64,000 bases of DNA, taken from Rhodohalobacter sulfatireducens. GTDB taxonomy: Bacteria; Bacteroidota; Rhodothermia; Balneolales; Balneolaceae. Of the stretch, positions 5,685 to 55,789 are shown one piece after another. Below the pieces are notes generated by a model. That model had not been told where the DNA came from, did no database searches, and saw nothing but the letters and a program-made list of their open reading frames with translations. A program made the translations under genes and the position numbers. The DNA lies in assembly GCF_022012475.1 (NCBI RefSeq), contig NZ_JAKLWS010000001.1, positions 186,001 to 250,000 on the forward strand. The letters run 5' to 3'. Every line of letters begins with the position of its first letter. Positions within the stretch are counted from its first letter, which is position 1.

Positions 5685-5781
5685 AGACATGGTATTTTTT
5701 CTTGATTGCAATAAATTATGAGACTTTTTAAACCTTCTTGCCCTAATTAAACTCTGTTTTGACTCGAAAAATACCATGTCT
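5685..5781. repeat. 97-bp RAYT-type element, copy A
   Basis: Starts AGACATGGTATTTTT and ends with the exact reverse complement AAAAATACCATGTCT; the 67-base centre is AT-rich and differs from other copies. The same termini and the same length of 97 bp occur at 53061, 53763 and (variant) 8620, and at 98 bp at 54343. It lies between the unknown gene and argS. Probably a non-autonomous element moved by the RAYT at 53166-53759. Confidence 0.85.
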
Positions 5782-8619: not shown

Positions 8620-8716
8620 AAACATTGTATTTTTTCTTGCTGACTCACAATTTTTAACTCACAAAATATTCTGTCCAGTTACTGAATTTTTCAGTGGTAA
8701 GAAAAATACAATGTCT
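8620..8716. repeat. 97-bp RAYT-type element, copy B (CATTG variant)
   Basis: Left end AAACATTGTATTTTT, right end AAAAATACAATGTCT: the same 97-bp architecture as copies A, C and D, but both ends carry a compensating change (CATTGT/ACAATG instead of CATGGT/ACCATG), so pairing of the ends is preserved. One end base (A instead of G) breaks the pair near the tip. It separates the methyltransferase gene from the SAM hydrolase gene. Confidence 0.75.
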
Positions 8717-51751: not shown

Positions 51752-53056
51752 ATGCTTCTAAAAAGCGAGTACCTCTATAAGCGAGCACAGAAATTCATCC
51801 CGGGCGGTGTTAACTCTCCGGCGCGAGCATTTAAATCCGTTGGAGGCGTTCCTGTGTTTTTCAAAAAGGCGAAGGGATCGATCATCACCGATGAAGATGG
51901 AAATGAATACATCGATTATGTGGGTTCGTGGGGGCCGATGATTTTAGGTCATGCTCATCCCACCGTCATCAAAGCGGTTCAGGATGCTTCGTTTAACTCC
52001 ACCTCATTTGGTGCACCGACTGAAATTGAGATCAAAATGGCTGAGCTGGTTCAAGCCATGGTACCGAATGTGGAGAAGGTCCGGATGGTAAATTCCGGAA
52101 CGGAAGCATGTATGAGTGCCATTCGGGTTGCGCGCGGATACACAGGTAAGGATAAAATCATAAAGTTTGAAGGAAACTATCACGGCCATGGGGATTCATT
52201 CTTGATTAAAGCCGGTAGTGGTGCGTTGACTCTCGGTAAACCAAGCAGCCCGGGTGTCACAAAGGGAACAGCTAAAGACACTCTAAACGCCGACTACAAT
52301 GACCTCGACAGCGTTGAAAAACTCCTCAAAAAGAATAAAGATAATGTAGCGGCAATCATTGTTGAACCCGTAGCCGGAAATATGGGATGCATCCCGCCTC
52401 AACCGGGATTTCTCGAAGGATTGAGAGAACTCTGTGACGAGCACAAAACGGTACTCATTTTTGATGAGGTGATGACCGGATTCCGGTTGGCTCGCGGCGG
52501 CGCCCAGGAACGGTTTGATGTGTGGGCGGATCTTGTGACCTTTGGAAAAATCATTGGCGGTGGATTGCCCGTTGGAGCGTTTGGCGGAAAGAAAGAGATC
52601 ATGGATGTCGTGGCACCGGTCGGACCTGTGTACCAAGCCGGAACTTTATCCGGAAATCCACTGGCGATGAGCGCCGGCTATGCTCAGCTCAGCACATTGG
52701 AAAAACATCCGGAACTGTATGTGGAACTGGAAGAAAAAGCAGAATATTTGGCCAAGCGGTTGAGAGTTGTTTTAAATCAGCATGAAATAGATTATCACAT
52801 GAACCAAGTTGGTTCAATGGCGAGCGTCTATTTTACTGATCAAGAAGTAACCGGGTTCAAAACGGCCAACACGACTGACCAGGAACTGTTCAAAATCTTT
52901 TTCCACGAAATGCTTAAACGTGGAATTTATCTGCCACCTTCACCATTCGAAAGCTGGTTTTTGGCGACAACCCTTACGAATGAGATGCTCGATAAAACCA
53001 TCTCGGCTGCGGATGAGTCTCTTGCGGTCGCGAAGTCGAAGGTTGGTGGGGAGTAA
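51752..53056 (+). CDS. hemL: Glutamate-1-semialdehyde 2,1-aminomutase
   Basis: PLP enzyme making 5-aminolevulinate from glutamate semialdehyde, feeding hemB. The 434-residue protein begins [20 protein letters not shown] and has [51 protein letters not shown] and the PLP Lys in [19 protein letters not shown]. All hallmarks are kept. The 150-base gap upstream of the start contains repeated TACTCAATA-type phrases. A RAYT-element copy C starts five bases beyond the stop. Confidence 0.95.
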
Positions 53057-53060
53057 TTGT

Positions 53061-53157
53061 AGACATGGTATTTTTCATTACTGGCAAAGTATTTTAAACC
53101 ACTATAAAGTTTTGCAAGTTGATGAATTCATTGTCATTAAGAAAAAATACCATGTCT
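53061..53157. repeat. 97-bp RAYT-type element, copy C (inverted relative to D)
   Basis: Ends AGACATGGTATTTTT and AAAAATACCATGTCT. Read on the minus strand, its inner sequence (TTTGCCAGTAATG next to the right end) matches copies D and F, so copy C is inverted relative to them. It begins five bases past hemL and ends eight bases before the RAYT stop. Confidence 0.9.
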
Positions 53158-53165
53158 GTTCCGGC

Positions 53166-53759
53166 TCATTCTATTTCTTGAAATGAAATTTTCTTTCTTA
53201 ACACATCTTCACGAATATTCCTCTGATGAAATTCAATAAATTCCTCTTTTCCAGAAAACAGACTTAAGATCTCTTTTCTCTTCAAATTTGTTTCTTTTTC
53301 AGAGAGAATGATTGGATAGGAACTCCATCTAAATCTTTCATAGTTCGGAGTAATTCGATGGTGGACTGGATTTCGATGAATATAATAGATCGTCCACAAC
53401 AATTGCTCTTCACTATTAATCCTGACTCTCTTTAAATGCTTTTCAAAAAGAGTTCCTTTTCTATTTTGTTGCTTATTGAAAGATTTAGAGTATGAAATAA
53501 AGAACTTTCTTAGCTGTTCTGATACTGTTTCTGGTTTAAGATTCTCATCAATCTTGATCAAAAAATGAAAATGATTTTCTAATAAACAGTAGGAATAGGC
53601 TGAGAATACTTCTCTGGTGTAGAGATGAAATTTATTTAAGAAGTATCTATAGTTTTCTTCATTATAAAACAACTGATCGTATCTAACAGCCTTGTTGTAA
53701 ATATGATAGAACTCTCTTGGTTTAAAAGGTGCTCCGTATTTAGAATAGTCTCTTTCCAT
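53166..53759 (-). CDS. RAYT-type HUH (Y1) transposase
   Basis: A 197-residue REP-associated tyrosine transposase. The start region KPREFYHIYNKAV is the family opening; YCLLENHFHFLIKI (about 67-80) holds the HUH pair HFH, the catalytic Tyr is in FISYSKSFNKQQNRKGTLFEKHLKRVRI (about 105), and YIHRNPVHHRITPNYERFRWSSYP closes the domain. Such enzymes nick and join short palindromic repeats. It lies exactly between two inverted copies of a 97-bp palindrome-ended element. Alternative in-frame ATG at 53768 lies within the end of copy D, so 53759 is preferred. Confidence 0.88.
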   Translation of the reverse strand: MERDYSKYGAPFKPREFYHIYNKAVRYDQLFYNEENYRYFLNKFHLYTREVFSAYSYCLLENHFHFLIKIDENLKPETVSEQLRKFFISYSKSFNKQQNRKGTLFEKHLKRVRINSEEQLLWTIYYIHRNPVHHRITPNYERFRWSSYPIILSEKETNLKRKEILSLFSGKEEFIEFHQRNIREDVLRKKISFQEIE

Positions 53760-53762
53760 GTG

Positions 53763-53859
53763 AGACATGGTATTTTTAGAAACTGAATGAAATTTGTTGA
53801 GGGAATCACATCTTACAAAAATTCAAAATGTTTTGCCATTAAGGAAAAATACCATGTCT
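53763..53859. repeat. 97-bp RAYT-type element, copy D
   Basis: Ends AGACATGGTATTTTT / AAAAATACCATGTCT, starting three bases upstream of the chosen RAYT start. Together with copy C it encloses the RAYT gene in a 799-bp unit (53061-53859). Confidence 0.9.
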
Positions 53860-53884: not shown

Positions 53885-53899
53885 AAAAATACAATGTCT
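53885..53899. repeat. Isolated half-end of the element (CATTG variant), copy E
   Basis: AAAAATACAATGTCT matches the right end of copy B exactly; upstream TTGCCAATAAA fits the inner end of copies D and F. No left end is found nearby, so it is probably a truncated remnant. Confidence 0.55.
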
Positions 53900-53931: not shown

Positions 53932-54063
53932 TCACTGCTCTTTATTGCCATACTCTTTCAGCGCATCCCTGATCGCATTTTTCACCACGAAATAACCGAT
54001 CACTGCCGATCCAACATATTTCAACATTGTAAATAGAATTGCCGTTATGCCTCCAATAGTCAT
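53932..54063 (-). CDS. Small membrane protein (43 aa), paralogue of its neighbour
   Basis: Encodes MTIGGITAILFTMLKYVG then SAVIGYFVVKNAIRDALKEYG and NKEQ. One predicted hydrophobic helix is followed by a short charged helix. It shares the pattern K-x-x-G-S-x-V-I-G-Y-x-V-x-K-x-A-I-x-x-A-L-K-E-Y with the 50-residue protein upstream, so the two are clear paralogues. Its ATG overlaps the upstream stop (ATGA), implying translational coupling. No known family; may be structural, regulatory or toxic. Confidence 0.6.
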   Translation of the reverse strand: MTIGGITAILFTMLKYVGSAVIGYFVVKNAIRDALKEYGNKEQ

Positions 54064-54212
54064 GATTTTTCTAGATTTTGTTCATTACTTAAATCATACT
54101 CCTTCAGTGCAGCAATGATCGCTTCTTTTAAAACAGCATAGCCGATAACGGAACCGATACCGAATTTTATGAAGTATACAATTATCTCGAATAACTGAAT
54201 TTTCCAACTCAT
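54060..54212 (-). CDS. Small membrane protein (50 aa), first of a paralogous pair
   Basis: Begins MSWKIQLFEIIVYFIKFGIG, continues SVIGYAVLKEAIIAALKEYD and ends LSNEQNLEKS: a hydrophobic N-terminal helix and an amphipathic charged tail. AGGAG lies five bases upstream of the ATG, a strong start for this genome. It overlaps the 43-residue gene by four bases. The pair sits between element copies E and F and near the RAYT, so it may be cargo or simply adjacent. No family recognised. Confidence 0.6.
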   Translation of the reverse strand: MSWKIQLFEIIVYFIKFGIGSVIGYAVLKEAIIAALKEYDLSNEQNLEKS

Positions 54213-54342: not shown

Positions 54343-54440
54343 AGACATGGTATTTTTTAGAAATTGTTCAACATTTCATTCAAACAAATCATCTAACAAC
54401 CATTCAAGAATGGTTTGCCATAATGAAAAATACCATGTCT
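54343..54440. repeat. 98-bp RAYT-type element, copy F
   Basis: AGACATGGTATTTTTT ... AAAAATACCATGTCT. An additional internal palindrome AACCATTC / GAATGGTT lies near its right end. Same orientation as copy D. It lies ahead of the MFS gene in a 311-base gap. Confidence 0.85.
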
Positions 54441-54523: not shown

Positions 54524-55789
54524 ATGAAGAATAAATCTGCTCTTGCTACTGTCTTTCTTGTTGTGGTAATCGATCTCCTTGGTTTTGGAATCGTATTACC
54601 CCTGCTTCCCTTTTATGCACAAGAGTTTTCTGCATCAGCCGTAACAATCGGCCTTCTTTACAGTGTTTATTCGTTCATGCAGCTCATTTTTTCTCCGATC
54701 TGGGGAAGTTGGTCAGACCGTGTTGGCCGACGCCCCATCATGCTAATGAGCACCTTTGGAGCAGTCATAGCCTACATCATTTTTGGGTTTGCGGGTTCTC
54801 TCAGTATCCTGTTTCTCTCTCGCATTGTAGCAGGAACCATGGGCGGAAATATCTCTACGGCACAGGCATACATCGCTGATATCACCGATAGTGAAAACCG
54901 TGCCCGCGGTATGGGGTTGATCGGAGCGGCGTTCGGAATTGGTTTTGTGATTGGTCCTGCTACGGCTACCGGATTGATTCATCCCGCCTTTCACGAATTC
55001 ATTGCCAGTTTTGGATTTCCGGATTTCGCCGCATGGATGGAAGCCAATCGTTTTGCTCTTCCCGGATTTTTTGCGGCTTTTCTATCCTTCTGCAGTTTCC
55101 TGATGGTGCTCTTCAAGCTTCCCGAAACAGTGGACAAATCAGCACCCAAAGAAAAAGAGGATACCTATCGCAGGCCGAGTGTTTTTTCACCCCGATTTTG
55201 GCAATTACTTAAAGAGCAGAAAGGTTCGTCCGCCCGTGGATTTCTCATCCCTCTGATTATCGGATTCTTCCTGCTCTCCTTCGGCGAATCAAGTCTCTAC
55301 AGTGCCTTTCCATTATTTGCAGAATCACAACTAAATATGAGTGCCGAGGATGTGGGAATTCAGTTTTTCTACATCGGTATCATCGCTGTGATTGTGCAGG
55401 GATTTTTGATCAAACCTCTCACAAATATTTTTGCCGAAGAGAAGATTTTCCTGGTTGGAAATATTTTGATGGTCATAGGACTCGGCCTGATTCCCCTCGC
55501 TCACAACATGCTCACCCTCGCACTTTTCCTGTGTTTAATGGCCCTTGGCAAAAGTCTTAACACTCCAACCATCACCAGCCTGATCTCCCAGGAGGCAAGT
55601 GAGAATAACTACGGTGCGGTAATGGGAGCTTCGCAGGGGCTTTCCGGGCTGGGACGAATGATTGGCCCGACATGGGGAGGGGCTCTGTTTGCAGCCTACT
55701 TTGGATTGCCATTTGTTGCCACCGCTGTAATTGTGGGTGCGACTATTTGGATTGCAGTCGGGTTGATTTCAAAAGATAACTCTCGCTAA
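54524..55789 (+). CDS. MFS transporter, TCR/Tet (DHA1-like) family
   Basis: A 421-residue, 12-helix major facilitator, probably a drug/proton antiporter. The N-terminal GFGIVLPLLPFYAQEFSASAVTIGLL, the loop 2-3 motif A-type GSWSDRVGRRPIM (motif A, GxxxDRxGRR), motif C-like region LIGAAFGIGFVIGPATATG and MALGKSLNTPTITSLISQEA in the second half identify the TetA/TCR branch. Substrate cannot be told; drug resistance is not implied without testing. No regulator is adjacent. Confidence 0.85.
   Translation: MKNKSALATVFLVVVIDLLGFGIVLPLLPFYAQEFSASAVTIGLLYSVYSFMQLIFSPIWGSWSDRVGRRPIMLMSTFGAVIAYIIFGFAGSLSILFLSRIVAGTMGGNISTAQAYIADITDSENRARGMGLIGAAFGIGFVIGPATATGLIHPAFHEFIASFGFPDFAAWMEANRFALPGFFAAFLSFCSFLMVLFKLPETVDKSAPKEKEDTYRRPSVFSPRFWQLLKEQKGSSARGFLIPLIIGFFLLSFGESSLYSAFPLFAESQLNMSAEDVGIQFFYIGIIAVIVQGFLIKPLTNIFAEEKIFLVGNILMVIGLGLIPLAHNMLTLALFLCLMALGKSLNTPTITSLISQEASENNYGAVMGASQGLSGLGRMIGPTWGGALFAAYFGLPFVATAVIVGATIWIAVGLISKDNSR

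Follow-up and report, generated by a model that had tools for sequence, protein, structure and literature searches.

The two 97-bp repeats that enclose a RAYT-like gene in the 64,000-nucleotide stretch of Rhodohalobacter sulfatireducens DNA analysed here (the window) probably belong to a TIRtron-type RAYT/REPIN system, in a Balneolaceae variant, in which the repeats would be non-autonomous substrates of the RAYT and the unit as a whole would not be an active insertion sequence (IS). The 799-bp arrangement of repeat C, the RAYT and repeat D is best read as a REPtron rather than as a new or self-moving IS. The known frame fits with modifications, namely AT-rich 15-bp ends, no GTAG tag and no palindrome within the ends.

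The 15-mer AGACATGGTATTTTT matches the window 11 times at up to two mismatches (0.32 expected; none of 100 shuffles reached 11) and, together with its complement, frames five complete elements, plus one lone end (Table 1). The "four solo copies" counted by the first-pass annotation are therefore three complete elements outside the C–D pair and, as the fourth, this lone right end. All five elements fold into hairpins well below shuffled sequences (DNA fold z −4.1 to −5.1). The interior itself is not palindromic (self-inverted identity 0.525 vs 0.515 shuffled), no bases beyond the 15-mer are conserved in the elements, whose interiors are little conserved, and no conserved target motif flanks them. 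Direct flanking repeats of at least 3 bp, sought around single elements of the window genome (G000) and its relative G068 as distinct from the whole 799-bp unit, numbered zero (1.4 expected at 3 bp). We take the flanking genes to be hemL, as named by the first-pass annotation and from general knowledge, and an MFS-type transporter gene, from general knowledge. Between D and E lie two adjacent small ORFs on the minus strand (53932-54063 and 54060-54212; 43 and 50 aa), both hydrophobic and similar in sequence, the 50-aa one without a match in 91 other family genomes and in Pfam.

Table 1. Repeat elements and genes in the window (positions are those of the 64,000-nucleotide stretch)
Feature	Position	Strand	Remarks
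Solo element	5685..5781	no strand	97 bp, perfect ends
Solo element	8620..8716	no strand	97 bp; site also occupied in relative G068
hemL (glutamate-1-semialdehyde aminomutase), presumed	51752..53056	plus	left neighbour of C-RAYT-D; ORF list
Element C	53061..53157	no strand	97 bp, perfect 15-bp terminal inverted repeats; just after hemL stop
RAYT-like HUH/Y1 tyrosine transposase gene (sequence-based)	53166..53768	minus	200 aa (197 aa from Met-4); ORF list, NF047646, Y1_Tnp, 4ER8, motifs
Element D	53763..53859	no strand	97 bp, perfect 15-bp ends; directly upstream of RAYT start or 6-bp overlap
Lone element end AGACATTGTATTTTT, partnerless	53885..53899	minus	25 bp beyond D
Element E	54343..54440	no strand	98 bp; interior 69% identical to D, direct orientation
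MFS-type transporter gene, presumed	54524..55789	plus	right neighbour; directly after hemL in G068 and G066 (synteny)

Judged from its sequence, the annotation of the enclosed ORF as a RAYT, already proposed in the first pass, is sound, because the protein matches NCBIfam NF047646 (REP_Tyr_transpos; E 5.8e-13, 49 bits, below the curated cut-off of 80 bits) and, weakly, Pfam Y1_Tnp (0.012), a profile built from its relatives hits TnpArep of E. coli, 4ER8 (E 0.008), and both His of HFH (residues 66-68), the Tyr of YIHRNP (Tyr129) and the NP residues are invariant in an alignment with seven relatives. No HTH family was reported for the protein by a Pfam search and a further family search. The PDB match of the single sequence to 6HIV (E 0.19) was discarded as chance, and an AlphaFold model built on three sequences (pLDDT 42) was too poor for a fold search. 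G000 encodes one RAYT of this clade (100% identity; next best full-length match 32%), and the C-RAYT-D unit is therefore also present once.

Two 97-bp elements with perfect ends do enclose the gene, and C ends eight bases before the RAYT stop, as originally described. The statement that D begins three bases before the RAYT start holds only if Met-4 (53757-53759) is the start, since the first ATG gives a 6-base overlap with D. The described inversion of C relative to D is weak. The outer arms of C and D (38 nt) are 87% complementary, which says little because much of this is the 15-bp end common to every element in both orientations; since the elements all carry this end once in each orientation, any pair looks inverted at its outer ends. 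With the ends excluded, the interiors of C and D agree at 0.61 inverted (p about 0.02) vs 0.51 direct (p 0.65), and those of D and E are clearly direct (0.69, p<0.001).

The proposed tie between the RAYT and the 97-bp repeat family was upheld outside the window. RAYT orthologues, 52-65% identical, are present in the relatives G048, G047, G059 and G075, and each is flanked by elements of 97-101 bp, in up to 11 copies, with the related ends AGACATGGTATTTCT, AAACATGGTATTTCT and AAACATGGTATGTTT. At the RAYTs of G048, G047 and G075 the elements form tandem arrays with 22-26-bp linkers. Elements across the RAYT are direct in G059 (0.90 vs 0.36 inverted, whole-element comparison), G075 (innermost elements, 0.77 vs 0.43) and G048 (0.63 vs 0.46); in G047 the innermost pair scores 0.59 direct vs 0.62 inverted and the best pair is direct (0.72). 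The five species carry this RAYT at five different loci, its neighbours presumably being hemL and the MFS gene in the window, an S9-type peptidase gene in G048, an alkaline-phosphatase-like gene in G047, an RND-type pump gene in G059 and a HAD-type phosphatase gene in G075. The G048 site consists of the RAYT plus six elements, and none of 18 relatives of G048 has an element pair after the S9 peptidase gene; the gene beyond the RAYT is non-syntenic in relatives, and a clean empty site was not obtained. RAYTs that are more distantly related within the family are enclosed by other palindromes. Another RAYT in G068 (L046, 1341-2223) lies between doublets of AGACCCGTCGGGTTTT with a spacing of about 50 bp; these make up a distinct REPIN-like family within the genus.

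Orthologues of hemL were identified in 24 of 28 genomes of the genus. In G068, whose hemL is 95% identical, a single 98-bp element separates the gene from the MFS gene and the RAYT is absent, and in G066 a decayed element remnant lies between the two genes. Complete elements start at most 60 bp from the end of the hemL match in G045, G048, G047 and G044, as do single element ends in G060 and G065. The RAYT was not found within 1.5 kb at these loci, which rules out its fixation at hemL across the genus, the outcome that had been named as speaking against mobility. Because the hemL loci of relatives carry elements without RAYT, the sequences indicate that the repeat site at hemL is old in the genus and that the RAYT there is peculiar to the window lineage, through either a gain in that lineage or a loss in the others. 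At the G060 hemL locus (L095, reverse strand), a left end AGACATGGTATTTCT and a right end AAAAATACCATGTCT, 11-851 bp past the end of the hemL match, bracket about 800 bp with a PIN-domain ORF (PIN_3, E 1.6e-20) where the window has the RAYT; a small ORF beside it, without a Pfam match, resembles an antitoxin partner.

At least 49 elements were recovered from G000 (5.1 Mb), 30 from G068 and six, mostly decayed, from G066, counts that depend on the thresholds used (up to two mismatches per arm in G000, up to one in G068 and G066). Almost all in G000 and G068 are 96-98 bp long. The both-end pattern occurs 35 times per strand in G000 and 26 times in G068 (reversed control, 0), and was detected in 21 of 92 family genomes, all within two genera. 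G068, G062 and G063 hold 19-26 elements each and no recognised RAYT of this clade. Contig ends adjoin elements (one G068 element lies 17 bp from a contig end), and since assemblies break at these repeats, a RAYT may be missed in the three genomes. Contigs that stop within about 20-50 bp of an element or element end include G068:C22 (end at L187) and G000:C88 (end at L130). Based on a simple ORF caller, 40 of 75 elements lie between convergent genes, vs 22 of 117 other gaps, and median element-to-ORF distances are 40-49 bp. A position between convergent genes has been reported for many REPs.

RAYTs have been described as invariably enclosed by a pair of repeats in inverse orientation, often very near the stop codon, a layout that has been a hallmark of the family since its description; these RAYTs are fast-evolving, show no multiple copies and display no typical signs of IS-like mobility (Nunvar 2010, PMC2817692). 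The window gene agrees in lying between repeats, in being single-copy and in combining an HUH motif with a catalytic Tyr next to an NP motif. It differs from that set in its repeats, since a GT(A/G)G head and a GC-rich, imperfectly palindromic sequence characterise the published REPs and the 15-mer, read directly, has no GT(A/G)G and is not self-palindromic, and in its host, those RAYTs having been found only in gammaproteobacteria. A bracketed RAYT has been termed a REPtron, which apparently does not transpose as a unit, and Bacteroidetes subclass 2.6 (RAYT group 5) has atypical flanking structures (Quentin 2018, PMC6006769). The window RAYT resembles this subclass in its YIHxNP-type Y motif, its NH-x-H, its size (about 180-200 aa in the subclass), its atypical flanking structures copied elsewhere in the genome and a GTAG-recognition region that is not conserved; against the published NH[LIV]H, WQ and YIH[QN]NP it has NHFH, YIHRNP and, on visual inspection, F for W (LFEK).

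In TIRtrons, a RAYT-like gene (TIRYT) is flanked by terminal inverted repeats (TIRs) that are not related to GTAG REPs (Di Nocera 2013, PMC3733652), as was found here, and both systems involve a moderately abundant repeat family with dimers and clusters. Most TIRYTs, however, belong to subclass 2.1 with a C-terminal HTH, which is not evident in the 200-aa protein, and many of their TIRs share GGGGWSAS, a motif not seen in the element ends. REPINs are hairpin-forming REP doublets (Bertels and Rainey 2011, PMC3116915); their two 16-mers are invariant, their spacer is variable although its length matters, and they show compensatory changes and occur in tandem clusters. The elements are similar in having short, inverse, near-invariant ends with a fixed spacing (71 bp from first residue to first residue in REPINs, 82 bp start-to-start here), a variable spacer, hairpin formation, tens of copies, tandem clusters, a specific RAYT nearby and changes in both arms, here at position 7. 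They are unlike REPINs in being AT-rich, in having neither a GTAG-type tag nor a palindrome inside each end, and in their in-place inversion, which is unmentioned in PMC3116915.

Seventeen element pairs occupy orthologous sites in G000 and G068, several of them with only one flank aligned beyond the length threshold. Their ends are 96.7% identical, a value partly ascertained because it was by the ends that the pairs were located. The interiors agree at 0.69 in the better of the two orientations, compared with 0.71 in adjacent noncoding DNA and 0.57 in unrelated noncoding DNA. Hypervariable or CRISPR-like interiors are ruled out by this similarity to nearby noncoding divergence, and are also contradicted by the interiors and linkers common to tandem copies. 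At four sites the two genomes differ at end position 7 simultaneously in both arms, one of these sites having a mixed arm pair in each genome. Of all 79 elements, 74 have arms that agree at this position, vs 41.6 expected, a number reached in 0 of 20000 permutations.

Interiors are significantly alike (p<0.005) in nine of the 17 pairs, five in the same orientation relative to the flanks and four inverted. At least two element interiors have clearly been inverted in place between these related genomes, both without gaps. At L112:6318-6415 / L160:1563-1660 the interior matches at 0.82 inverted vs 0.46, with both flanks in the same sense (left 272/345, right 28/31), and at L127:1542-1638 / L156:1660-1756 at 0.73 inverted vs 0.54, with both flanks aligned and an element only 24 bp away not inverted. 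For L112_2550, and for element C compared with the G068 hemL element (0.68 inverted vs 0.59), an inversion is no more than suggested; should C flip in place, little about packaging could be concluded from how it is oriented relative to D. L113/L186 was dropped as a further inversion, two neighbouring elements there matching in opposite senses.

In the TIRtron-type reading, the 97-bp elements would be non-autonomous repeats whose two inverted 15-bp ends, separated by about 67 bp, form a hairpin in single-stranded DNA by pairing with each other. The one RAYT, an HUH endonuclease, would be the likely cognate enzyme; it probably binds or cuts the element ends, nicking and rejoining them in single-stranded DNA, and could occasionally copy or move elements, having spread and locally amplified them. 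Tandem arrays beside RAYTs would reflect local amplification, and the RAYT would be bracketed because it acts on, or recombines with, nearby repeats. In-place inversions and both-arm changes may arise through a cruciform or template switch at the end hairpins or through RAYT strand exchange, and the data fit both routes. The elements of G068, G062 and G063 without a recognised clade RAYT, and the non-REP-like ends, count against this explanation. A tentative extension, which we consider possible though short of probable, is that the elements persist at their sites for a long time, with the two 15-bp ends kept matching while the interiors of about 67 bp flip in place via end hairpins or RAYT strand exchange, so that REPIN-like elements would be maintained by in-place turnover at fixed sites and not only by transposition.

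It is improbable that C, the RAYT and D form a minimal IS that uses the inverted elements as its ends and can still move as a unit. The scatter of the RAYT over five loci in five species, the G048 site without counterpart in 18 relatives and the RAYT-free hemL loci would suit such mobility, but differing loci are equally explained by horizontal transfer or recombination between repeats. The genome holds one copy, the elements lack target duplications of the kind expected of a TIR-type IS, the inversion of C relative to D is weak and the brackets in relatives are mostly direct, as in G059 and G075, and arrays are seen rather than two defined ends. The tight bracketing, which the first-pass annotation regarded as unusual and as a hint of a movable unit, is the normal RAYT layout (PMC2817692), and because it is a hallmark of the family, it does not prove movement of the unit.

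We regard it as rather unlikely, though compatible with the TIRtron-type reading, that the elements are now mainly host-maintained sites, such as protein-binding sites or structures at gene 3' ends, with ends kept by selection regardless of the RAYT, itself a relic or occasional disperser. The near-identical ends around neutral-like interiors, the preference for convergent gene pairs and the undetected clade RAYT in G068 agree with this idea. However, the sites were chosen because both genomes keep recognisable ends, the G068 RAYT may be recently lost or lie in an assembly gap, and element loss appears to be tolerated, because in G066 elements have decayed and orthologous sites with few or no elements occur. 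Very improbable, finally, is a DNA-invertase-type switch, in which a site-specific recombinase inverts the short segments at the 15-bp ends and the RAYT is incidental. Two unambiguous and two weaker inversions among nine informative pairs are what such a switch would produce, but template switching at hairpin arms would also yield them, in five species the elements occur together with a RAYT of one and the same clade, and there is no common promoter-like cargo because the interiors show little conservation beyond the ends.

The TIRtron-type system touches two open questions, namely how non-mobile RAYTs move repeats and why repeats persist so long. The genus offers a natural comparison, with the same sites, near-identical ends, neutral-like interiors and the RAYT elsewhere or not found. 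The in-place inversions and both-arm changes seen at orthologous sites form a footprint that any cleavage or template-switch mechanism must explain, and one that can be searched for in other RAYT genera.

In G000, L108 (G000:C11, 1515-2083) packs three elements and a different palindromic repeat into about 570 bp, vs about 57 bp between the aligned flanks at the element-poor orthologous site in G066 (G066:C3:177301-177400). At G068:C13:34303-42157, an element is about 8 kb away from a flank that lies directly beside it in G000 and almost directly in G066, possibly reflecting an insertion next to the element.
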